Source: Spartinivicinus marinus (GTDB taxonomy: Bacteria > Pseudomonadota > Gammaproteobacteria > Pseudomonadales > Zooshikellaceae). Taken from it: a stretch of DNA of 64,000 nt. Within the stretch, counting starts at the first letter, position 1, and every line of letters begins with the position of its first letter. The notes below the pieces were generated by a model. The model was not told where the DNA came from, searched no databases, and saw nothing but the letters and a program-made list of their open reading frames with translations. The DNA lies in the NCBI RefSeq assembly GCF_026309355.1, contig NZ_JAPJZK010000001.1:5166501-5230500 (forward strand), in the 5' to 3' direction. Position numbers and translations under genes: made by a program. Shown here piece after piece: positions 32,362-43,718 of this stretch.

Positions 32362-32967
32362 CTACCAATCAATCCCCTGTTGGGCTTTAATTCCTGCATC
32401 AAAAGCATGCTTCACTGGTTTTATTTCACTTACTGTATCAGCCAATTCAATTAATGCTTTCGGGCAGCCACGGCCGGTGATTATAACCGACTGCTGTTTA
32501 GGCCGGTTTTGTAAGGCGGTAATGACTTCACTTTCATCCAAATAGCCATAACGGATCATATAAGTCAGTTCATCTAACAACACCAGTCGTAGTTCTGGAT
32601 TAGTAAGCATGGCTTTGCCGGATTGCCAGACCGCCTGGGCGGCGGCGGTGTCTTTTGCTTTATCCTGAGTATCCCAGGTAAAGCCGGTGGCCATAACATG
32701 ACATTCCACCCCATGCTGCTCCAGTAAATCCCTTTCTCCACAAGCCCAGGTGCCTTTAATAAACTGGATGACACCGGCTTTAAACCCATGGCCCACACAG
32801 CGGGCCACATTGCCAAAACCGGCGGTACTTTTACCTTTGCCATTACCCGTTAGCACAATAATAATGCCACGCTCTTCTGTTGCTTCAGCCACTTTTTGAT
32901 CAATATGGGCTTTTTTCTTCGCCATTCGGGCTTGGTAGCGAGCTTTTTCTTCGTCGGTTTGAGTCAT
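32362..32967 (-). CDS. cobO: Cob(I)yrinic acid a,c-diamide adenosyltransferase
   Basis: 201 residues, the length of CobO/BtuR. The P-loop GNGKGKSTAGFGN is at about 42-54. Other family blocks are FIKGTWACGERDLLEQ, LVLLDELTYMIRYGYLDESE and VIITGRGCPKALIELAD. It transfers the adenosyl group from ATP to cob(I)alamin or corrinoid precursors in the cytoplasm. It starts 18 bp after btuB in the same orientation. Both are likely controlled by the upstream cobalamin riboswitch, giving an uptake-plus-activation unit for salvaged corrinoids. Confidence 0.95.
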   Translation of the reverse strand: MTQTDEEKARYQARMAKKKAHIDQKVAEATEERGIIIVLTGNGKGKSTAGFGNVARCVGHGFKAGVIQFIKGTWACGERDLLEQHGVECHVMATGFTWDTQDKAKDTAAAQAVWQSGKAMLTNPELRLVLLDELTYMIRYGYLDESEVITALQNRPKQQSVIITGRGCPKALIELADTVSEIKPVKHAFDAGIKAQQGIDW

Positions 32968-32985
32968 AATATACGGCGTTAGTGG

Positions 32986-34818
32986 TTAGTTAGGTCGATA
33001 AATCAAGGATATTAACGTATTGATTCCATCTTCTTCAAAGCCTTTATTGGTTTCGTAATCTTTATCAAAGATATTATTGATTTTCCATTGCAGGGTAATG
33101 TCGTCTGACAGTTTATATGACTGTAATAAGTTGACAGTACCAAAGCCAGGTAAATCGTCTCTGCTATTAAAACTAGCATTGTGCCGTTTACCTTGTAAAA
33201 ACCATTCAACACCTAAGGTATAGCGATTCCAGGTTTTATTAAGACTCATATTGACTAATTGTTTGCTGCGGGCGCGTAGGGTAGAGTCAGTGTCTTTATC
33301 CTTGGGATCAAGTAAGGTCAAACTGGTTGTATAGTTCCAGCCTAATAGCTCAGTAGTTAGTTCAGCTTCAATGCCATGAATTTCTGCTTGATTAACATTC
33401 TCTCGTATGAATCCACTACTAGGAAATGGTTTGTTAATAATTAAATCTTCTATCTGAGTTTCAAATATTCCTACTCGCCACCTTCCGGATTGAGAAAAGC
33501 CTTTTAACGCTAGCTCATAGTGTTTGGCCTGCTCAGGTTTTAGGTTTGGGTTACTGCGGTAGAAAGTGTCTTGAGAATATAAATCATTAAAATTTGGAGC
33601 GGCAAAAGACTCGCCATAACTGGCAATAACTTGTAAATCATCATTAATCCAATAACCATAGGAAAACTGTTTACTAGTGTGATGACCAAATTGCTCGTTA
33701 TCTTCATGACGTAGACCAATGATAATGTCGTGATTGCCGTAGGTTATTTGGTCTTGAATAAAATAGGCATGATTATAACGGGAGCGTTTTGTTAGACTAG
33801 TACTACCTACAATATGGTCATCAATGTACTCATAACCTGTTGTTAATAAATGGTGCTCATTAAGCTTCCAGTTAAGCTGAGCAACACGAGAATAGCTTTT
33901 AATATCTAATTGTGAGGGAAAGCTGTTATCTTCATTTAAAAAGTCGGCAAAATCTTTTGATTGACTAACCCCTAGTTTTAGATCTAAGGAATCATTAAAT
34001 TGATGGGTAAGCTCGGTGCCAATAGTTTGTATGGTAAACTCAGTAAACTGGTTATTCTGACCACCGAAGTCAAGCTCAGTTTCTCCTTTATTCTGAAACA
34101 AGTAGGCTGAGAGTGAGGTTTTTTCTGAAAAATTATGTTTTAAGTAGGCATTAATACTGTTATTCCGATAACCATCATTCTCTTTTCGAGAGTCGTCTGT
34201 TCTTCTATTAAACCCTTCTGTATTGTGATAACCCAGTTTTAAACTATAAAAAGTATCTTCAATTTTACCGCTAATGCCGCCAGCATATTTTTCAGTTTTA
34301 TGGGAGCCTCGGGTGATTTTTAACTCAGGGGCTAAGGTTTTGTCCGTATCCTTGCGGGTAATAATATTAATCACTGCGCCCATGGCGGCTGCACCATAAA
34401 TAGCGGCTTTAGGACCACGAACAATTTCCACTCGCTCAACTGAATCCAGGTCAATTAAGCTAATTTGGCCTTGTCCACTAGTAGGCTGATTAATTCGTAT
34501 ACCATCAATCAGTACTAAAGTGTGTCTAGTTGCCGTGCCGCGGCTAAAAATTCTTGTCGTAGAACCAGTGCCTCCCGATTGTTGTACATCCAACCCAGGT
34601 ACCCGTTTAAGCAATTCCGGTAAATCCTGTGCCTGGCTTTTTTCGATGGCCTCACGGGTAAATAACGTAACGGGGGCCAGGCTGTTGGCGACTGTGGTGG
34701 GGGTAAGGGTGGGGGTGACTACAATTTCATCCAGTACGACAGGTGCTTCATTAGCGGCAATAGCCTGTCCAGCAATGAATAAACTGACAAACAGTGGCTT
34801 GGGGGTAAAGTGTGGCAT
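32986..34818 (-). CDS. btuB: TonB-dependent vitamin B12 receptor
   Basis: 610 residues. A signal peptide ends near AIAANE (about 22). A TonB-box-like LDEIVVTPT follows, then the plug domain (about 45-150, with LVLIDGIRINQPTSGQG and VERVEIVRGPKAAIYGAAAM) and a 22-strand outer-membrane barrel. The C-terminus ends ISLIYRPN rather than in an aromatic residue, which is unusual. The BtuB assignment rests on the similar plug, the neighbouring cobO and the cobalamin riboswitch 170 bp upstream. No BtuFCD genes lie in this window. Confidence 0.92.
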   Translation of the reverse strand: MPHFTPKPLFVSLFIAGQAIAANEAPVVLDEIVVTPTLTPTTVANSLAPVTLFTREAIEKSQAQDLPELLKRVPGLDVQQSGGTGSTTRIFSRGTATRHTLVLIDGIRINQPTSGQGQISLIDLDSVERVEIVRGPKAAIYGAAAMGAVINIITRKDTDKTLAPELKITRGSHKTEKYAGGISGKIEDTFYSLKLGYHNTEGFNRRTDDSRKENDGYRNNSINAYLKHNFSEKTSLSAYLFQNKGETELDFGGQNNQFTEFTIQTIGTELTHQFNDSLDLKLGVSQSKDFADFLNEDNSFPSQLDIKSYSRVAQLNWKLNEHHLLTTGYEYIDDHIVGSTSLTKRSRYNHAYFIQDQITYGNHDIIIGLRHEDNEQFGHHTSKQFSYGYWINDDLQVIASYGESFAAPNFNDLYSQDTFYRSNPNLKPEQAKHYELALKGFSQSGRWRVGIFETQIEDLIINKPFPSSGFIRENVNQAEIHGIEAELTTELLGWNYTTSLTLLDPKDKDTDSTLRARSKQLVNMSLNKTWNRYTLGVEWFLQGKRHNASFNSRDDLPGFGTVNLLQSYKLSDDITLQWKINNIFDKDYETNKGFEEDGINTLISLIYRPN

Positions 34819-35362: not shown

Positions 35363-36238
35363 ATGGAAATTCAAAATACAAATGACAATACGTTTTGGTT
35401 GCGTTTCGCTAGTGCAGCCTCAGTGATTACGGCAGTGATTTTGATCCTGGTGAAAGCCGTTGCTTGGTTTTTTACCGGGTCGGTCAGTTTACTGGCATCA
35501 TTGGTTGATTCTGTGCTGGATGGCCTAGCTTCAGTGATTAATTGGGTAGCTATTCGTTATTCACTGAAGCCGGCAGATAAAGAGCATCGATTTGGTCATG
35601 GCAAAGCAGAATCATTAGCGGGCTTGGTGCAAGCAGCCTTTATTTTAGTGTCTGGCATATTTTTGGTGTTAAATGCCATTCATCACCTTAAGCGACAGTT
35701 TGTGCTTGAATCTGAATGGTTGGGGATTGGGGTTATTGTATTCGCTATTCTAGCTACTTTGGGGTTATTAACCATTCAGTACACCGCCATAAAAAAAACA
35801 GGCTCTGTAGCAATAAAAGCAGACTCACTTCATTATCGGGCAGACTTATTAAGCAATACGGCAGTATTAGTTGCTCTAGGGTTAACCGCCTGGGGCTGGC
35901 CACAAGCGGATGCACTCATTGCTATAGGTATTGCAGGGTATATGGTCTACAGTGCTCGGGACATATTAATTGAAGCCATTAATTTACTGATGGATCATGA
36001 GTTACCAGATGTGACTCGCCAGCAAATTACTCAATTAATATTGCAGGTAGAGGGAGTCAAAGGGGTGCATCAGTTAAGAACGCGCCGCTCTGGCATGACG
36101 CCGATTATTCAGCTACACCTGGAGCTAGATAAACATTTAACGTTAGAAGCTGCCCATCAAATTTCTGATCAGGTGGATGCTGCTATTTTAAATCAATTTC
36201 CTGATGCGGATATTCTTATTCACCAAGATCCTGTTTAA
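35363..36238 (+). CDS. fieF: Cation diffusion facilitator, FieF-like
   Basis: 291 residues from ATG 35363; in-frame TTG codons upstream would add six residues but have no better ribosome binding site. Six membrane helices span about 15-205. Metal-site motifs are LLASLVDSVLDG (Asp in helix 2), HRFGHGKAESLAG and LHYRADLLSNTAV (helix 5). A cytoplasmic ferredoxin-like domain follows, with ELPDVTRQQI and a His-Asp-containing end. Such proteins export Zn(II), Fe(II) or Cd(II) against protons. Its 3' end overlaps the AraC regulator gene tail-to-tail by 23 bp. Confidence 0.88.
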   Translation: MEIQNTNDNTFWLRFASAASVITAVILILVKAVAWFFTGSVSLLASLVDSVLDGLASVINWVAIRYSLKPADKEHRFGHGKAESLAGLVQAAFILVSGIFLVLNAIHHLKRQFVLESEWLGIGVIVFAILATLGLLTIQYTAIKKTGSVAIKADSLHYRADLLSNTAVLVALGLTAWGWPQADALIAIGIAGYMVYSARDILIEAINLLMDHELPDVTRQQITQLILQVEGVKGVHQLRTRRSGMTPIIQLHLELDKHLTLEAAHQISDQVDAAILNQFPDADILIHQDPV

Positions 36239-37238
36239 CCCGGTATTCACTAGGTGATAATCCTGTCCATTGTTTAAAGCGGCGACGAAATGACCGAACA
36301 TCATGAAAGCCCACGGCATGTGCGGTTTGTTCAATGGTCGATTGAGTATTGGTCAGAATTTGCTTCGCTGTGACTAGTCGAACCTTATCAAGTAGTGCTT
36401 GATAATGCGTGTTTTTTTGTTGCAATCGCCTTTGTAAGGTGCGTGCTGAGATACCTAATTGCGCGGCTACTTCTGCTGGTTTAGGAATATTAGGCATCAT
36501 TTGTTGGATAGTGGCCGACACCTGTTGGCTGATATCCTGGCTGTTTAATTGACTGATTAATTGATTGGCATGTTGTTCTAGGGTTTGTAGTAACCCAGGG
36601 TCGGCTTGGCGCAACGGTACTTGTAAATGTTCATGGGAAATCCACACGGCATTTTGCTGGGCCTGAAATACAACTGGGCACTGAAATATTTGTTGGTATT
36701 CCGCTTGAGCTGACAGATTAGGGGCTGCACGGGTTAGCTCAATTTTTTGTGGGTTTTCATTTCTATCAGTAATCCAACGTCCATAATTCACCCAAGAGGC
36801 CAAACAGTGATCAACCATATGTTGGTGTACTAATGGGTCGGTAAACTGGCAGTGCCAGTTTAAAACCAGTCCTTTTGCATTTGGCTTCAATTGGGAGCAT
36901 CCCATATCCCCCACCAACGCTTCATAACGTTGAATTCTATTAACGGCTTCAGCCAGCGTAGCGCAATTCATGGCGATATACCCCAGCACATGGTAGGAAC
37001 CAGGCTGAACAAATTGCGCTGCGTGCAGGCCAAACAAGGGGTCATTACTCAGTTGAATAAACTGGTGTAACAGTTTTTCCATCGCCGCTAACGATACCCT
37101 TGAGCTGCTAGACGATAACTGATTTGGATTAATACCTGCTTGTTTGGCCAATGGTTCAACAGCTAGGCCATAATGCTCTGCCAGCTTAATAAATTGGCTT
37201 AAGGCTGCGGTTGAGGTTGATCCGATAGTACTTGTCAT
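36216..37238 (-). CDS. AraC-family transcriptional regulator
   Basis: 340 residues. The first about 200 residues fit the Arabinose_bd type ligand domain (GLAVEPLAKQAGINPNQL and FGLHAAQFVQPGSYHVLGYI). Two helix-turn-helix motifs occupy about 235-335, with PAEVAAQLGISARTLQRRLQ and QTAHAVGFHDVRSFRRRFKQW. It is divergent from the AGPS-like/GlpD-like/FGGY-kinase set, with 182 bp between starts, and is its most likely regulator. The ligand may be a substrate or product of that pathway. Confidence 0.9.
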   Translation of the reverse strand: MTSTIGSTSTAALSQFIKLAEHYGLAVEPLAKQAGINPNQLSSSSSRVSLAAMEKLLHQFIQLSNDPLFGLHAAQFVQPGSYHVLGYIAMNCATLAEAVNRIQRYEALVGDMGCSQLKPNAKGLVLNWHCQFTDPLVHQHMVDHCLASWVNYGRWITDRNENPQKIELTRAAPNLSAQAEYQQIFQCPVVFQAQQNAVWISHEHLQVPLRQADPGLLQTLEQHANQLISQLNSQDISQQVSATIQQMMPNIPKPAEVAAQLGISARTLQRRLQQKNTHYQALLDKVRLVTAKQILTNTQSTIEQTAHAVGFHDVRSFRRRFKQWTGLSPSEYRVKQDLGE

Positions 37239-37420
37239 AAACAGTGTTCTGGCATGTCAGGATTAGCCCCTTAAATCGGCGTTAATGGTCAGTGACGTTG
37301 GCAATACAAACGTTAGTATAAAATAGGAACACTCAAGAATTAACTTGAATTTTTATCACTAATCCATCCCGCCTGGCCGTGCTGCAAACGCTTGACATAG
37401 GCCCAAAAAGGAGCAGGTTG

Positions 37421-39145
37421 ATGACAATACGCCGCTGGAACAGTTGGGGCTGGGAAACAGTCAGCTACCCTTTGCCTGAACAGGCAACTCATTTTTTAAT
37501 GGATCAATTAGGGGGAGCAACCCCGCTACCGGCTGCTTCATTAACGGATGTCCTTGCTAGTGTGCCTGAAACCAGGCTTGAAGCACATCCTTTGGTTGAC
37601 TGCTCCGCTGAGGTACGGGTTAACCATAGTCGGGGCCAGAGCCTGGCAGACTGGCTAGCATTAAAGTCTGGGCAGTTAGGTGTAATACCCGATGGAGTGG
37701 CTATGCCCACGACCAGTGAGCAAGTGGCAGAGTTATTACAATGGGCAAAGCAGCATCAATATAAAATTATCCCTTATGGTGGCGGTACTTCAGTGGCTGG
37801 CCACATCACTCCCCAGGCTGCAGAACAGCCTATCCTGACGTTAAGCCTAGCTCGGCTCAACCAGCTGATTAATGTTGATAAAGATAGCCTTCTAGCTACC
37901 ATCGGTGCAGGTGCCACAGGCCCACAAGTAGAAGCACAACTGCAAAGCCAGGGTTATACCTTGGGGCATTTCCCCCAATCATTTGAGTTTTCTACCTTAG
38001 GTGGCTGGATCGCGACCCGTTCCAGTGGTCAGCAGTCGCTCTACTATGGACGTATAGAACAATTATTTGCAGGCGGAAGAGTAGAAACGCTTGAGGGCGC
38101 TTTAAATATCCCCGCTTTTCCTGCATCTGCGGCTGGGCCGGATTTACGAGAGTGGGTATTGGGCTCCGAAGGGCGAATTGGCGTTATTACTGAAGCGATT
38201 ATGCGGGTGTCACCTTGTCCTTCATATGAGTCTTTCCGGGTAGTGGTATTACCCAGCTGGGAGCAAGCGATAGCACTGCTCAAAAAGCTCGTGCGGTTGC
38301 GGTTAGGGTTATCCATGTTGCGCTTAAGTGACGGGGTAGAAACTGATACTCACCTGCAGCTGGCTGGCCATCCTCGTTCGATTAATGCCCTGCGTTGGTA
38401 TTTGCAAAAGCGTGGCTGTGGGCAAGGGATGTGTATGCTGACAGTGGGTTTTACTGGGCAACAAAAAAGTCAGTATCAAAACAAAATTAAATTATGTAAA
38501 CAGCTGGTCGCGCAACATAAAGGAGTCAGTACTGGGGAGTGGCTAGGGAAAAAATGGGCTGCTGGGCGGTTTCGTTTACCTTATTTAAGAGAGGCATTAT
38601 GGCAGCGTGGTTTTTTAGTCGATACAGTGGAAACAGCTATTGCCTGGTCGCAAATTAATTTATTGAAGGAACAACTAGAAAATGCTGTGGCTAATGCCCT
38701 GGTGGATGAAGGGGAAAAAACTTGGGTGTTTACTCATATTTCTCACTGTTACCCGCAAGGGGCCAGTTTATATACCACATTTTTATTCCGTCAGGCGGAT
38801 AATTACACAACAACTTATGCACGTTGGCAGAAGTTAAAACAAGCCGCTTGTGAGGCCATTGTTAAAGTCGGGGGAACCATTAGCCACCATCATGGTGTGG
38901 GAAAAGATCATGCTCCTTATTTAAAGGCTGAAAAAGGTGAACTAGGCATTCAGCAAATAAAAAACTGGCTAATAAATTTTGATCCCAATCAACAATTAAA
39001 TCCGGGCACTTTACTACCAAATCCTTTATTACCGAGCACATTAACACCTGATTCAGACCAAGAAGACATAAGTCGTTTATCACAAGATGAACCAACAGAT
39101 AATCAGCTGAGTGTACATCATGATGCCTGTCAGCAAATGGCTTGA
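37421..39145 (+). CDS. FAD-binding alkyl-DHAP-synthase-like protein
   Basis: 574 residues. ATG 37421 is chosen because AGGAG precedes it at good spacing, and MTIRRWNSWGWE then matches the start of the alkylglycerone-phosphate synthase fold (human AGPS has KWNGWGYN). The FAD domain shows IPYGGGTSVAGHI (about 115-127) and SEFSTLGGWIATRSSGQQS-like spacing. The active-site triple histidine is in TISHHHGVGKDHAPYL (His 488-490). AGPS swaps the acyl group of acyl-DHAP for a fatty alcohol to make the ether bond. It overlaps the next gene by 26 bp. Confidence 0.85.
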   Translation: MTIRRWNSWGWETVSYPLPEQATHFLMDQLGGATPLPAASLTDVLASVPETRLEAHPLVDCSAEVRVNHSRGQSLADWLALKSGQLGVIPDGVAMPTTSEQVAELLQWAKQHQYKIIPYGGGTSVAGHITPQAAEQPILTLSLARLNQLINVDKDSLLATIGAGATGPQVEAQLQSQGYTLGHFPQSFEFSTLGGWIATRSSGQQSLYYGRIEQLFAGGRVETLEGALNIPAFPASAAGPDLREWVLGSEGRIGVITEAIMRVSPCPSYESFRVVVLPSWEQAIALLKKLVRLRLGLSMLRLSDGVETDTHLQLAGHPRSINALRWYLQKRGCGQGMCMLTVGFTGQQKSQYQNKIKLCKQLVAQHKGVSTGEWLGKKWAAGRFRLPYLREALWQRGFLVDTVETAIAWSQINLLKEQLENAVANALVDEGEKTWVFTHISHCYPQGASLYTTFLFRQADNYTTTYARWQKLKQAACEAIVKVGGTISHHHGVGKDHAPYLKAEKGELGIQQIKNWLINFDPNQQLNPGTLLPNPLLPSTLTPDSDQEDISRLSQDEPTDNQLSVHHDACQQMA

Positions 39146-40739
39146 AACAAAATCAATTACCCGGCAACAGCGGTGGCATCAGCTGCAACATCATCAATCG
39201 ATTGAGGTGGCCGTTATTGGTGGCGGTATTACGGGAGCCGCTATTTTTCGCGAGTTAGCGCGATATGGTGTTAAAGTGGTGCTATTTGAGCAAGGGGATT
39301 TTGCCTCAGGCACATCTAGTCGCTCATCCAAATTAATTCATGGTGGCTTACGTTATTTAGGCAAAGGACAGCTTTCGCTGGCTTTTCAGTCTATTCGTGC
39401 CAGACAATGGCTTAAACAACAACTGCCGGGTTTAGTTGAGCCACTGCATTTTATGATTCCCCATTATCAGGGGAATTTTCCAGGCCAGCATAGCTTTGGC
39501 TGGCTATTAAAAATTTATGACTCCCTAGCGAAAGAGTCTCAGGCATATTCGCTAAGTGCCCATCAAGTATTGACCAGACAACCACTGGTCAATTTACAAG
39601 GCTTGCAAGGTGGCTCTGTTTTTACCGATTGTATTAGTGATGATGCACGATTAGTGATGCGATTAATGACTGAAGGGGAGGCGGATGGAGGCATTGCTCT
39701 CAATTATACCAAAGTGACATCCATCCAACAGGGAAGAGGAGGGGTTACCCTTGAAGTCCAGGATGCTGTGTCTAAACAGTCTACTTCACTTGCCGTAAAA
39801 GCGGTCGCTAATGCAGTTGGGGCTTGGGTTAATGGTCATGATTATCAGCAGCCTTCACTTTATCGGATAAGACCCTTGCGTGGTAGCCATGTATTAATCC
39901 CTGGTTGGCGGTTACCAGTGAGTGGTGCGCTGAGTTTTTTTCATCCTGAAGACAGGCGACCTATTTTTATTATTCCCTGGCAGGGGGCCACGGTAATTGG
40001 TACCACCGATGTGGATCATACAGCACCTTTAACCAATGATTTGGCAATCACTAGCAGTGAAATTGACTATTTATTATCGGCTTGTAATCAATTATTACCT
40101 GAGCTTCAATTAACTCATTATGATATTCAAGCCAGTTGGTCGGGGGTGCGACCAGTGCTGGCAGGTAAGGATAAAGATGCCCCCTCTGCGTTAAGTCGAG
40201 AACATGTTTTGTGGCGTCGGGGAGCGATAGTGAATGTCACAGGTGGTAAGCTAACGACATTTAAGTCTATTGCTGAACAAGCCTTGGCTCTGTTAAGAGA
40301 GAGTGTGCAATTACCTGTCTCTCCCGTTAATCCTCATTGGTTTCGTCAAGTAACAAGACAGCCTTTGTTGCCTTTTACTCAGCTGTCTTTTACTACTCAA
40401 CAGCGCTTATACGGCACTTATGGTACTTGGTTAAGTCTATGGCCATTGCAAAATAAGCGATCTCTACAACAATTTGCTCCAGCCCCCACACTTTATGCCG
40501 AGCTTGAATGGATTTTGCAACAGGAGCAGGTGGTACATTTAGATGATTTATTATTGCGTCGCACCCGCATCGGGTTATTATGCCCGTTGGGGGGAAGTCA
40601 CTGGTTATCCGAATTAAAGCCATTATGTTGTCAGTGGCTAGGCTGGAATGAAGCTAAATGGCAGGCTGAAGTTGACCGCTATCTAACTATCTGGCAACAG
40701 TCTTATAGTCATCCTGAGTTGTTAGCGGAAGTAGCTTGA
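39120..40739 (+). CDS. FAD-dependent glycerol-3-phosphate dehydrogenase-like protein
   Basis: 539 residues, from ATG 39120 inside the end of the AGPS-like gene. The N-terminal dinucleotide fold VAVIGGGITGAAIFRELARY (about 28-47) and GTSSRSSKLIHGGLRYL (about 65-81) are the GlpD signature. ATVIGTTDVDHTAP and TGGKLTTFKSIAEQAL support the same family. GlpD oxidises sn-glycerol 3-phosphate to DHAP and passes electrons to quinone. In this context the substrate could be an alkylated glycerol phosphate. The C-terminal region (about 400-540) is typical in length. Confidence 0.88.
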   Translation: MMPVSKWLETKSITRQQRWHQLQHHQSIEVAVIGGGITGAAIFRELARYGVKVVLFEQGDFASGTSSRSSKLIHGGLRYLGKGQLSLAFQSIRARQWLKQQLPGLVEPLHFMIPHYQGNFPGQHSFGWLLKIYDSLAKESQAYSLSAHQVLTRQPLVNLQGLQGGSVFTDCISDDARLVMRLMTEGEADGGIALNYTKVTSIQQGRGGVTLEVQDAVSKQSTSLAVKAVANAVGAWVNGHDYQQPSLYRIRPLRGSHVLIPGWRLPVSGALSFFHPEDRRPIFIIPWQGATVIGTTDVDHTAPLTNDLAITSSEIDYLLSACNQLLPELQLTHYDIQASWSGVRPVLAGKDKDAPSALSREHVLWRRGAIVNVTGGKLTTFKSIAEQALALLRESVQLPVSPVNPHWFRQVTRQPLLPFTQLSFTTQQRLYGTYGTWLSLWPLQNKRSLQQFAPAPTLYAELEWILQQEQVVHLDDLLLRRTRIGLLCPLGGSHWLSELKPLCCQWLGWNEAKWQAEVDRYLTIWQQSYSHPELLAEVA

Positions 40740-40779
40740 AATATAAAAACGTATCTTTAATTCCCACTTCCTCATGCCG

Positions 40780-40816
40780 TCCCCCCCTTTGAAAAAGGGG
40801 GGGCTAGGGGGGATTT
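40780..40816. repeat. C-run/G-run palindromic repeat
   Basis: CCCCCCCTTTGAAAAAGGGG begins a palindrome that continues into GGGCTAGGGGGGATTTA. Similar sequences occur as dispersed repeats in many bacterial genomes. It lies 40 bp after the GlpD-like gene. Confidence 0.6.
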
Positions 40817-40960
40817 AAAATTGTTAAGTTTTTATTCTGCCTTAAATGTAAAAAACAGCGGGTTGTTTGGGGTGCTTTGAGTTGGTTTTCATGAAATTTC
40901 CCCTTTTTAACGAGTTTACGGTAAAAGGGTGTTGAAAGTAATTTGAGTGTTTGATACGAA

Positions 40961-41056
40961 GTAACAGGATATTCTTCCTCCGCTCTTGAAGTGCCGTCCC
41001 TGGCCCATCAAGAGCTAAAAAGGCATCCATGCCTTAGCTACAGAATACCCTATTAC
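40961..41056. repeat. Dispersed repeat family A, copy 3 (complete)
   Basis: GTAACAGGATATTCT (40961-40975) and AGAATACCCTATTAC (41042-41056) are inverted arms matching at 13 of 15 positions. Between them is a GCTCTTGA/TCAAGAGC hairpin (about 40981-41015). The 96-bp unit is the best-preserved member; other copies are at 32297 and 35163. It is non-coding. Confidence 0.65.
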
Positions 41057-41178
41057 CCCATATCTACTAGCTTTTTGATAGCCTGATAGGTAGGAGGGAG
41101 TAATGATTTGCTCCGAAAAAACCTCGTTTGAGGAGAAAAAACTAAAAGTAGTTTGCTGATTGACCTAGGAGATTAGTT

Positions 41179-42732
41179 ATTACTCAAGATCCATTAATTC
41201 TGGCCATTGATAATGGTACCCAAAGTGTACGTGCTTTGGTGTTTAACCTGGCTGGACAGTTGCAGTATAAAACCAAAATACCTTTACAGCCGTATTTTTC
41301 TCCTAAACCAGGCTGGGCAGAGCAGCAACCGGAATATTATTGGCAGTCTGTCGTGGCAGCATGCCAGCAATTATGGCAGCTAGATTCCAGTATTAAACAA
41401 CGCTTGGCTGGGGTAACGGTGACGACCCAGCGGGGCACTGTGATTGCCATGAATAAACAGGGGCGCCCGTTACGTCCAGCGATTTTATGGCTAGACCAAC
41501 GGCGAGCTGAATTACGTGGCAAGGTACCTCAACCCTGGCGTCTGTTATTTGCCGGGTTAGGATTAAATTCAACGGTTAATTACTTTCGGTCAAAAGCACA
41601 AGCTAATTGGTTAGTTCAGTATGAGCCTGAGTTATGGGAGCAAACCGATAAATTTTTATTATTATCAGGCTATTTAAATTATCAGCTCACAGGTGAATGG
41701 GTAGATTCAATTGGCTCTATGGTGGGCTATTTGCCCTTTGATTATAAAAGGCTGGCCTGGGCCAGGCCCAAAGACTGGAAGTGGATGTGCAGTGGTGTAG
41801 CACCTGAGCAATTACCACGACTGGTGGCACCTACTACTATTATGGGGCAGATTACTCAGCAAGCAGCGGAACAAACAGGGATTCCTGCTGGTTTACCCGT
41901 TATTGCTTCTGCCTCTGATAAAGCCTGTGAAGTATTAGGCTCGGGGGGTATAACCCCAGATATTGGTTGTTTAAGTTATGGCACTACCGCTACCATTAAT
42001 ACGACAAATGCTAAGTACATTGAACCTATACGGTTTATTCCTCCTTACCCTGCAGCAGTACCCACAGCTTATAATACGGAAGTGATGATTTATCGTGGCT
42101 ACTGGATGGTCAGCTGGTTTAAAGAACAGTTTGGCTTAAAAGAACAACAGTTGGCGGAAGTACAGGGTACCGAACCAGAAACATTATTTGATGAACTAGT
42201 TGAGTCAGTTCCGGCCGGTTCTATGGGGCTAATGCTGCAACCTTACTGGTCTCCTGGTTTAAAAGAACCGGCTGCTAAAGGCGCTATTTTAGGTTTTGGT
42301 GATGTGCATACTCGCGCCCATATGTATCGAGCCATTTTAGAAGGGCTGACTTATGCCCTAAGAGAAGGTAAAGAAACTATCGAGCGCCGAGCTAAAACCC
42401 CCATTACACAACTACGGGTGTCCGGTGGTGGTGCCCAAAGCCAGGCCGCCATGCAAATCACCGCCGATATTTTTAATATGCCTGCAGTCAGGCCCCATAC
42501 CTTTGAAACCTCTGGGCTAGGAGCTGCCATCGACGCAGCCGTTGGCTTAAAATTACATTCCACAATCGAAACTGCAGTACAACAGATGGTACATACAGGC
42601 GATGTATTTGAGCCAATTAAGGAAAATGCTGACCGGTATAATGCCCTGTATAATGAAGTCTATTTAAAAATGTACCGACAGCTTAAACCTTTTTACCAAA
42701 CCATCAGAAAAATCACTGGCTACCCAGAGTAG
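41179..42732 (+). CDS. FGGY-family carbohydrate/glycerol kinase, ATT start
   Basis: 517 residues if it starts at ATT 41179. No ATG, GTG or TTG exists between the upstream stop (TGA 41161) and TTG 41236. Starting at 41236 would lose LAIDNGTQSVRALVFN, the phosphate-binding motif needed for activity. TAGGAG (41166-41171) stands 7 bases before the ATT, a good ribosome binding site. FGGY features are DQRRAEL, GYLPFDYKR, SYGTTATINT and SGGGAQSQAAMQITADIF. It should phosphorylate glycerol, a sugar or an alkylglycerol. It is the third gene of the AraC-controlled set. Confidence 0.85.
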   Translation: MTQDPLILAIDNGTQSVRALVFNLAGQLQYKTKIPLQPYFSPKPGWAEQQPEYYWQSVVAACQQLWQLDSSIKQRLAGVTVTTQRGTVIAMNKQGRPLRPAILWLDQRRAELRGKVPQPWRLLFAGLGLNSTVNYFRSKAQANWLVQYEPELWEQTDKFLLLSGYLNYQLTGEWVDSIGSMVGYLPFDYKRLAWARPKDWKWMCSGVAPEQLPRLVAPTTIMGQITQQAAEQTGIPAGLPVIASASDKACEVLGSGGITPDIGCLSYGTTATINTTNAKYIEPIRFIPPYPAAVPTAYNTEVMIYRGYWMVSWFKEQFGLKEQQLAEVQGTEPETLFDELVESVPAGSMGLMLQPYWSPGLKEPAAKGAILGFGDVHTRAHMYRAILEGLTYALREGKETIERRAKTPITQLRVSGGGAQSQAAMQITADIFNMPAVRPHTFETSGLGAAIDAAVGLKLHSTIETAVQQMVHTGDVFEPIKENADRYNALYNEVYLKMYRQLKPFYQTIRKITGYPE

Positions 42733-43040
42733 ACCCTAACGCGGTATACCTTTTCTGATCAGGATCATTTCACTTCCTTTATAGCAGCATTTCAACGGCC
42801 GTACTCCTAGTTAGGGGCGATGTTGTCCTTCACTTTTAGTGAGAATTTGTTAACAATATCCGCTAAGCAATTCATCGAAAGCATACAGCAGGTTGTGTGC
42901 TTTCAAATCAGTGTAGTGATGAAAAATATAAGCTGCAAAGAAGTGTGTGGTTACTAAAATTGGGTGTGCTCAAGGGCGGTAGCGTAGCAAATTGTATTGA
43001 AGGGGCTTGTCTAACAATATGTTGTATTTTACGAGTAAGG
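42733..43040. other. Intergenic region at the start of the accessory zone
   Basis: About 308 bp. A GTG at 42897 is in frame with the next gene, but the residues before 43041 are not protein-like for the family. No repeat or terminator with a T-run was identified. Confidence 0.35.
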
Positions 43041-43718
43041 ATGGTGTGCACTTTGAGTGTTGAAGAAAACGGATTTGAGATCCATCCTGGCTTTCTAGAC
43101 AATGATTCAATAAATAAAATCATTGATGAAATTGAAGCTTTAGATTCTGATTTTCCAAAGCATGGAATTCGTAATGCAGAGAAAAAATTAGCCTCTGTCA
43201 AAAAACTCGTTGACTCAAACTTACTTCGAAACAAAGCTGAAAGCTACTTATCAGGCAATCCTGAAGTGGTTCGAGTTATGGTCTTTGATAAAACCCCCGA
43301 TAAAAACTGGCTTGTCACTTGGCATCAAGATAAGACAATTTCAGTAAATGATAAGAAAGCAATACCCGGTTGGGGGCCATGGACCTTAAAGGATGGCATT
43401 AATCATGTTCAGCCAAATTTGAAAGTTTTAGAAGATATGGTGACTTTCCGCATACATCTTGATGATGCAAATGAGAGTAATGGTTGCTTAAAGGTTATTC
43501 CCAAAAGCCATAGCTTGGGCATTCTTAGTAAAAATGAACAAGATCGAGTGGTGAGAGAGTCAGAAGAATATACCTGTCTAGCAAAGCCTGGAGATTTATT
43601 AATCATGAGGCCTCTGTTACTTCACTCTTCAAGTAAAGGGACAACACCGCATCATCGCCGTATTGTTCATATTGAGTACAGCGGCTTTAAGTTACCACAG
43701 GGCTTAACATGGGCTTAA
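43041..43718 (+). CDS. Phytanoyl-CoA dioxygenase (PhyH) family protein
   Basis: 225 residues from ATG 43041; a GTG at 42897 would give an N-terminal extension that looks non-native. Fe(II) and 2-oxoglutarate site: TWHQDKT (His and Asp at about 93-95), a distal His in LLHSSSKG and a basic HHRRIVHIEY block. WHQDKTISV is close to bacterial PhyH proteins that hydroxylate small molecules. It is the first gene of the AT-rich accessory region. Its stop is directly followed by a REP-like repeat. Confidence 0.8.
   Translation: MVCTLSVEENGFEIHPGFLDNDSINKIIDEIEALDSDFPKHGIRNAEKKLASVKKLVDSNLLRNKAESYLSGNPEVVRVMVFDKTPDKNWLVTWHQDKTISVNDKKAIPGWGPWTLKDGINHVQPNLKVLEDMVTFRIHLDDANESNGCLKVIPKSHSLGILSKNEQDRVVRESEEYTCLAKPGDLLIMRPLLLHSSSKGTTPHHRRIVHIEYSGFKLPQGLTWA

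Follow-up and report, generated by a model that had tools for sequence, protein, structure and literature searches.

The question raised by an operon of Spartinivicinus marinus, lying in the 64,000-nucleotide stretch of DNA analysed here (the window; contig NZ_JAPJZK010000001.1, positions 5,166,501 to 5,230,500), is what a flavoprotein resembling alkyl-dihydroxyacetone-phosphate (alkyl-DHAP) synthase, AGPS, would do in the company of a GlpD-like flavoprotein and an FGGY kinase. Judged from sequence, the reading to which we give somewhat better than even credence is that the three enzymes break down 1-O-alkylglycerols, or closely related glycerols substituted at 1-O, derived from ether lipids. 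Reading frames and Pfam domains bear out the original prediction of an AraC regulator with AGPS-like, GlpD-like and FGGY genes at 36216-42732, and all Pfam domains of the four operon genes score above cut-off. The features of the locus are as follows.

36216-37238, minus strand: AraC-family regulator, GliR-like, 340 amino acids (Arabinose_bd and HTH_18), divergent from the operon
37239-37420, no strand: divergent promoter region, with a GliR motif A-like site inside
37421-39145, plus strand: AGPS-like flavoprotein, 574 amino acids from ATG (FAD_binding_4 and FAD-oxidase_C)
39111-40739, plus strand: GlpD-like flavoprotein, up to 542 amino acids, exact start unsure (DAO and DAO_C)
41179-42732, plus strand: FGGY kinase, 517 amino acids from ATT (FGGY_N and FGGY_C)

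The three enzyme genes recur as a unit. Of 194 genomes from the order to which the window belongs, 52 gave matches, 46 of which form a clear group at 49-100% identity, the next lying at 37% or less; the loci of 40 of this group were compared, together with the best 80 of at least 580 AGPS relatives from a scan of named genomes. Neighbour counts come, where one was made, from a six-frame recount, because the first gene calling overlooked genes at loci rich in GC. At 37 of the 40 order-level loci the AGPS gene is followed on the same strand by GlpD-like and FGGY genes; L044 and L066 have neither partner and L064 stops at a contig end. At the named loci a GlpD-like gene follows in 77 of 80, an FGGY kinase in 72 and both in 72 (initially called as 73, 72 and 68), and the eight misses comprise three contig ends (L111, L150, L151), two loci with neither partner (L125, L130) and three with no FGGY gene (L139, L145, L157). 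The next-commonest neighbour clusters reach at most 10 of the 80 named loci and 6 of 37 order-level loci, and a chance neighbourhood was rejected on the recurrence of the trio. Hosts among the best 80 include Pseudomonas, Marinobacter, Vreelandella, Endozoicomonas, Moritella and SAR86, and further Janthinobacterium, Massilia, Undibacterium, Rhodanobacter and metagenome-assembled genomes labelled with other phyla. In Polaromonas a more distant homologue of AGPS (28.3%) stands without any of the trio-type partners. The three loci with no FGGY gene are in metagenome-assembled genomes labelled Gemmatimonadetes, Anaerolineaceae and Chloroflexota, and hold a gamma-type pair of AGPS and GlpD-like genes.

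We considered what the kinase might accept. In GlpK the residues R83, E84, Y135 and D245 hydrogen-bond to glycerol and F270 packs on it (PMC3245297; here and below, citations refer to the available passages of each paper), and the Plasmodium falciparum enzyme makes similar contacts, with the Asp as proposed base for the C3 hydroxyl (PMC2680290). These places were read in two partly overlapping alignments of operon kinases, of 36 and of 65 (named) family members. Comparison with known structures, a check put forward in the original prediction, found the GlpK signature gone: the E84 place is never Glu (G17, A10, Y6, S2 and T1 among the 36; G55, A6, Y3 and S1 among the 65), the F270 position falls in a gap and lacks an aromatic neighbour in 36/36 and 65/65, and Y135 is retained in 2/36 and 0/65. 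The Q246 place is Lys in 36/36 and 64/65, and no member of either set has lost R83, W103 or the base D245. The predicted pocket is therefore short of one hydrogen-bonding contact and of its aromatic wall while keeping the hydroxyl-activating residue, an arrangement that suits a 1-substituted glycerol without proving one. Curated models place the kinase below cut-off both for glycerol kinases (TIGR01311, 167.6 bits against 590.35) and for xylulokinases (TIGR01312, its best NCBIfam match, 255.3 bits against 380.25). Its predicted structure (predicted local distance difference test, pLDDT, 90.3) lies at much the same distance from xylulokinases, LsrK and glycerol kinases, so that XylB, LsrK and GlpK are not told apart by structural ranking and the fold names no substrate. 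A sister-group FGGY kinase with the same altered pocket is encoded at L185:9056-11487 and L186:8975-11463, where it adjoins a gene that by eye is 3-hydroxyisobutyrate-dehydrogenase-like; no AGPS was found in either genome.

The GlpD-like protein is conserved in the places that matter for its chemistry, as R54, Y55, R317, R332 and K354 of Escherichia coli GlpD, which we take to be catalytic and phosphate-binding residues, are present in 35/35 operon family members. By profile score it is a paralogue and not the genome's canonical GlpD: it reaches 280.1 bits against the NCBIfam equivalog NF008899, below the cut-off of 360, and a canonical GlpD at 772.6 bits lies elsewhere in the genome, close to a GlpK at 4.67 Mb. 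GlpK above its curated cut-off is likewise found in 45 of the 46 genomes with the operon AGPS, the lone miss being an 83%-complete genome. With genuine GlpK and GlpD elsewhere, glycerol use should not depend on the enzymes of the operon. GlpD enzymes, which are linked to quinones, oxidise their substrate in vivo, a direction that fits the breakdown of ether lipids and not their synthesis. We give next to no credence to redundant glycerol or glycerol-3-phosphate (G3P) enzymes standing beside an AGPS-like enzyme of unrelated role. The family names alone would fit such an arrangement, and the NCBIfam matches of all four genes are below cut-off, but the gene order is conserved across many genera, and the altered kinase pocket together with the true GlpK and GlpD elsewhere in the genome led us to reject it.

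The AGPS-like protein joins a VAO-type FAD domain (PF01565, 106.5 bits) to FAD-oxidase_C (PF02913, 126.3 bits). Its best sequence match in the PDB is Dictyostelium AGPS (2uuu, E 4.5e-80), with mammalian AGPS next and the best match outside AGPS at E 1.1e-21, and Foldseek ranks 1-37 for its predicted model (pLDDT 80.8) are all AGPS, followed by D-lactate dehydrogenase. The residues R352, R447 and Y508 of the Dictyostelium enzyme, shown by mutagenesis to be important (PMC3509576), correspond to R315, R404 and Y465 of the window protein, numbered from GTG 37379; the aligned chain positions are 349, 444 and 505, a constant offset of 3. All three are invariant among the 80 named, 36 order-level, and 15 close and 27 distant actinobacterial sequences. 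The second pocket comparison thus found the catalytic Arg, Arg and Tyr in place, along with the HHH motif that we take to be the 'triple histidine' of the family, so that the window protein shares sequence, predicted fold, catalytic residues and histidine triad with AGPS. Catalytic residues and predicted fold are intact, and the exchange activity itself is predicted. In contrast to AGPS with FAR and GNPAT partners, the window AGPS is bacterial and has GlpD-like and kinase partners instead.

These properties can be arranged in a pathway. The FGGY kinase would phosphorylate 1-O-alkylglycerol at C3 to give 1-alkylglycerol-3-phosphate, and the GlpD-like enzyme, presumably quinone-linked, would oxidise C2 to give alkyl-DHAP. 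The AGPS-like flavoenzyme would then run backwards, alkyl-DHAP forming an N5-flavin adduct as the fatty alcohol leaves, and the adduct would be resolved by fatty acid or water to acyl-DHAP or DHAP. DHAP would pass into central metabolism and the fatty alcohol would be oxidised to fatty acid. The original prediction had given the same order of kinase, GlpD-like enzyme and reverse AGPS, and as an order it stands as the best supported reading, given a kinase unlike GlpK, conserved AGPS and GlpD residues and the actinobacterial module described below; the direction and the substrate are the parts that we infer. Starting with an alkylglycerol, kinase, GlpD-like enzyme and reverse AGPS would form a closed route of three steps, ending in DHAP and fatty alcohol. 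Were glycerol the starting point, steps one and two would duplicate GlpK and GlpD, an acyltransferase would be missing and the alkyl-DHAP would still need a reductase.

That second starting point is the one adopted by Kotecka et al. 2021, who proposed glycerol-to-alkyl-DHAP synthesis for the PA3026-PA3024 genes of Pseudomonas aeruginosa (PMC8151288). Applied here, kinase and GlpD-like enzyme would convert glycerol to DHAP, an unlinked acyltransferase would turn it into acyl-DHAP and AGPS would produce alkyl-DHAP for ether lipids. Synthesis is the textbook direction of AGPS (PMC3509576), and MXAN_1676, an AGPS of Myxococcus xanthus, makes a small contribution to ether lipids (PMC9131029). The operon of that protein, MXAN_1676-1674, resembles the present one in being a three-gene operon with a bacterial AGPS but differs in having synthetic partners, a FAR-GNPAT fusion and an NAD-dependent epimerase (PMC9131029), and an NAD-dependent epimerase, with a short-chain dehydrogenase/reductase (SDR), also precedes the trio in SAR86 and Porticoccaceae. 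Unlike the Myxococcus operon, however, the window has neither FAR nor GNPAT, nor any other acyltransferase or fatty acyl reductase, among its four operon genes and two flanking genes, and none appears among the 25 of 72 Pfam families listed for 82 co-directional neighbours at 43 of the 80 named loci. The two strong PF07993 (fatty-acyl-reductase-type) matches in the genome sit in frames of 1466 and 4660 amino acids, with nine weaker ones at 22-57 bits, in a search confined to PF07993 among reductase families. A GlpD-type enzyme would, moreover, oppose the reduction of alkyl-DHAP that synthesis needs, the kinase lacks the glycerol signature, and a genuine GlpK is in any case present in 45 of the 46 genomes with the operon AGPS. 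We consider the synthetic direction distinctly unlikely.

Catabolism of alkylglycerols draws its best comparative argument from Actinobacteria, where an AGPS relative was found in 49 of 296 genomes of a phylum-wide sample (58 matches) and 40 loci were compared. In Streptomyces fungicidicus and Tsukamurella it is accompanied by GlpD-like, TetR and YegS/DAGK lipid kinase genes, and in Nonomuraea (L191) by GlpD-like and TetR genes, with no lipid kinase recognised. Among the 12 closest loci a GlpD-like gene occurs in 11, a lipid kinase in 9 (8 by the first calling) and TetR in 7. This cluster (L190, L192 and most of L232-L243) resembles the operon in having a related AGPS (36.6% and 38.4% identity to that of the window, with 88% and 76% of the query aligned), together with a kinase and a GlpD paralogue. 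It differs in that a DAGK-family lipid kinase replaces the FGGY kinase and TetR replaces AraC, and its GlpD-like gene lies on the opposite strand and belongs to a different clade. In a midpoint-rooted GlpD tree of 26 rows (the distant L286-L288 were left out beforehand, as was L080), the gamma and actinobacterial module proteins fall into separate clades, both well supported, and the actinobacterial clade branches next to the main GlpDs of that phylum. It thus seems that AGPS was combined with a GlpD paralogue and a kinase on two occasions, the kinases being unrelated, and we take this as the best argument for a lipid-like kinase substrate belonging to the same pathway. A YegS lipid kinase also lies beyond the trio at 9 of the 80 named loci, all Pseudomonas, and at 4 of the 40 order-level loci; its presence in the actinobacterial module and beyond the gamma trio points the same way.

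The substrate might nevertheless be another one within the same catabolic logic, a 1-O-aryl, alkenyl or monoacylglycerol or another polyol, from which AGPS would release an alcohol, a phenol or a fatty acid. The pocket changes merely exclude free glycerol, relatives of the kinase exist without AGPS, and the hosts are as varied as Endozoicomonas and Marinobacter, Pseudomonas and Janthinobacterium. The AGPS-like protein is, however, closest to AGPSs by sequence and by model, AGPS possesses a long-chain channel (PMC3509576), and the actinobacterial kinase is a lipid kinase; we regard a different substrate as unlikely, if a serious contender. Another use of the kinase would be salvage, in which exogenous alkylglycerol is phosphorylated into membrane ether lipids and the GlpD-like and AGPS enzymes only trim the excess. 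Mammalian alkylglycerol kinase (EC 2.7.1.93) has that role, phosphorylating alkylglycerol for membrane ether lipids (PMC9131029, PMC7911779). Salvage is very unlikely here, as the two enzymes leading away from alkyl-G3P are conserved with the kinase as one unit and no acyltransferase is among the 25 neighbour families listed.

The regulator connects the operon to a described system. Among the NCBIfam models listed, the best for the AraC protein is GliR (NF050186), at 373.7 bits and below the equivalog cut-off of 570. A divergent AraC gene lies ahead of AGPS at 20 of the 37 order-level loci whose AGPS frame was found by the gene caller, and at most two genes upstream at 42 of the 80 named loci. 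A GliR motif A-like site with two mismatches is present at 37276-37290, in a window that holds 10 such sites where 7.2 are expected by chance. Across the named loci 13 of the 42 AraC-linked upstream regions carry one (shuffled mean 3.4 over 20 shuffles, largest 8), as do 5 of the 38 regions without AraC (shuffled mean 3.65). The sites are suggestive, with weak statistics, and by analogy with GliR of P. aeruginosa the GliR-like protein would activate the operon.

The existence of the operon is not new, because GliR (PA3027) with PA3026-PA3024 is a published relative of the same make-up, in which a divergent AraC gene accompanies genes for these three kinds of enzyme, and such operons have been described in other gammaproteobacteria and one betaproteobacterium (PMC8151288, the only paper on this operon among the open-access matches listed). 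P. aeruginosa is not among the loci compared, and the comparison was made through the published description and near-matches to published primers: primer sites for PA3027 fall inside AraC genes (L089, L101) and those for PA3026 inside AGPS genes (L095, L117), in each case at Pseudomonas loci and with 2-3 mismatches. The window system differs in its AraC protein, which falls short of the GliR equivalog score, in the proposed direction and substrate, and in having a PhyH-family gene after the trio in place of the lipid kinase PA3023 that follows it in P. aeruginosa (PMC8151288). The few non-Pseudomonas hosts identified by the same authors had no glpD or glpK homologue (PMC8151288); given the GlpD and GlpK of this genome, and GlpK in 45 of the 46 operon-bearing genomes, that absence does not extend here. 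GliR activates PA3026-PA3024, the phospholipase C gene PA3464 and PA3342 (PMC8151288), and a phospholipase C could feed an alkylglycerol pathway from ether phospholipids.

Several observations weigh against alkylglycerol breakdown as the role of the trio. Deletion of PA3026-PA3024 gave no phenotype on rich medium, citrate or glycerol, under osmotic stress or on Biolog plates; the available passages of that account mention no alkylglycerol test of the mutants (PMC8151288). Reverse AGPS as a physiological route, though chemically plausible, is not reported in the literature passages. The family triple histidine, which the original prediction had called intact, is so in the window and its near kin and in 42/42 actinobacterial relatives, but reads HQH in 78/80 named and 31/36 order-level gamma relatives. 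E84 is missing from other kinases of the fold as well, for example xylulokinase 3ifr as aligned, so that its loss excludes glycerol better than it names a substrate, and kinases with the same pocket occur in three genomes (G511, G519, G530) where the AGPS profile search was negative. Conversely, AGPS stands with neither partner in reach at the four loci given above, and with a GlpD-like gene but no FGGY kinase at three. At the 28 more distant actinobacterial AGPS loci a GlpD-like gene is near in two and a lipid kinase in none; one of those two, L266, carries the gamma-type trio. The lipid kinase found beside the FGGY kinase in Pseudomonas implies that the two are not strict substitutes. Finally, the SDR and NAD-dependent epimerase ahead of the trio (L159, L161, L163) could be taken as a sign of synthesis; in L159 the epimerase matches PF07993 weakly, at 68 bits, against 121.5 bits for Epimerase.

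The limits of the genes deserve comment. The AGPS-like protein probably starts at ATG 37421, behind AAAGGAG and seven bases after the AGGAG, GTG 37379 being less likely, and its frame overlaps that of the GlpD-like protein by at most 35 bases. Although the kinase frame is open from 41164, the first in-frame ATG, GTG or TTG comes only at 41236, a start that would remove the N-terminal motif DNGTQS. The likely start is the rare codon ATT at 41179, seven bases after an AGGAG; we take it as such because the ATT is conserved in the window and both congeners examined, with the purine-rich stretch ahead of it reading AGGAG in G071 and GGGAG in G100. An insert of about 400 bases separates the GlpD-like and kinase genes (40740-41178 in the window) in this genome (G000) and in G071; it is missing from G100, where the gap from the GlpD-like gene to the kinase ATT is about 40 bases. 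Within the insert, at 40782-40802, is the G/C-rich palindrome CCCCCCTTTGAAAAAGGGGGG.

The surroundings of the trio vary. The PhyH-family dioxygenase gene lies at 42897-43718, directly 3' of the kinase, and has the same position in congener L038. Genes of cobalamin type, recognised by eye, lie near the operon at 32362-34818 of the window and also in L042, L054 and L059, in two families of the order (adenosyltransferase-like and BtuB-like receptor genes, with CobS/CobQ-like ones in other loci), and are probably old synteny. In L118, L122 and other loci of the P. fluorescens group three co-directional genes follow the kinase, encoding a 429-residue protein (no Pfam match in L118), a DUF1302 protein and one that is DUF1329-like by eye, perhaps for uptake of a hydrophobic substrate; DUF1302 occurs in 4 of the 82 co-directional neighbours. 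A PhoD-like phosphatase gene (PhoD_N and PhoD) adjoins the kinase gene at L149:13190-15541 and L183:6306-8675. The hints from these further neighbours (SDR/epimerase, DUF1302, PhoD-like and YegS) are weak and none is general.

Breakdown of alkylglycerols by the trio would have implications for how the glyceryl ether bond is cut. The tetrahydrobiopterin-dependent monooxygenase AGMO cleaves this bond in alkylglycerols (PMC3617469, PMC7911779) and is called in reviews the only enzyme known to do so. The proposed route would reach the same end without biopterin and, at the cleavage step, without O2, and in the open-access titles and abstract beginnings among the matches listed no alkylglycerol-breakdown role is assigned to the operon. 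We see about even chances that phosphorylation, oxidation and reverse AGPS together make up a monooxygenase-independent glyceryl ether cleavage that is widespread in bacteria and was assembled again in actinobacteria. If so, Pseudomonas, Marinobacter, Endozoicomonas, Janthinobacterium, SAR86 and others would have an alternative to AGMO, one in which reversed AGPS chemistry serves a physiological purpose. It would explain how bacteria could use animal ether lipids, and it would provide a testable substrate for the GliR regulon of Pseudomonas.

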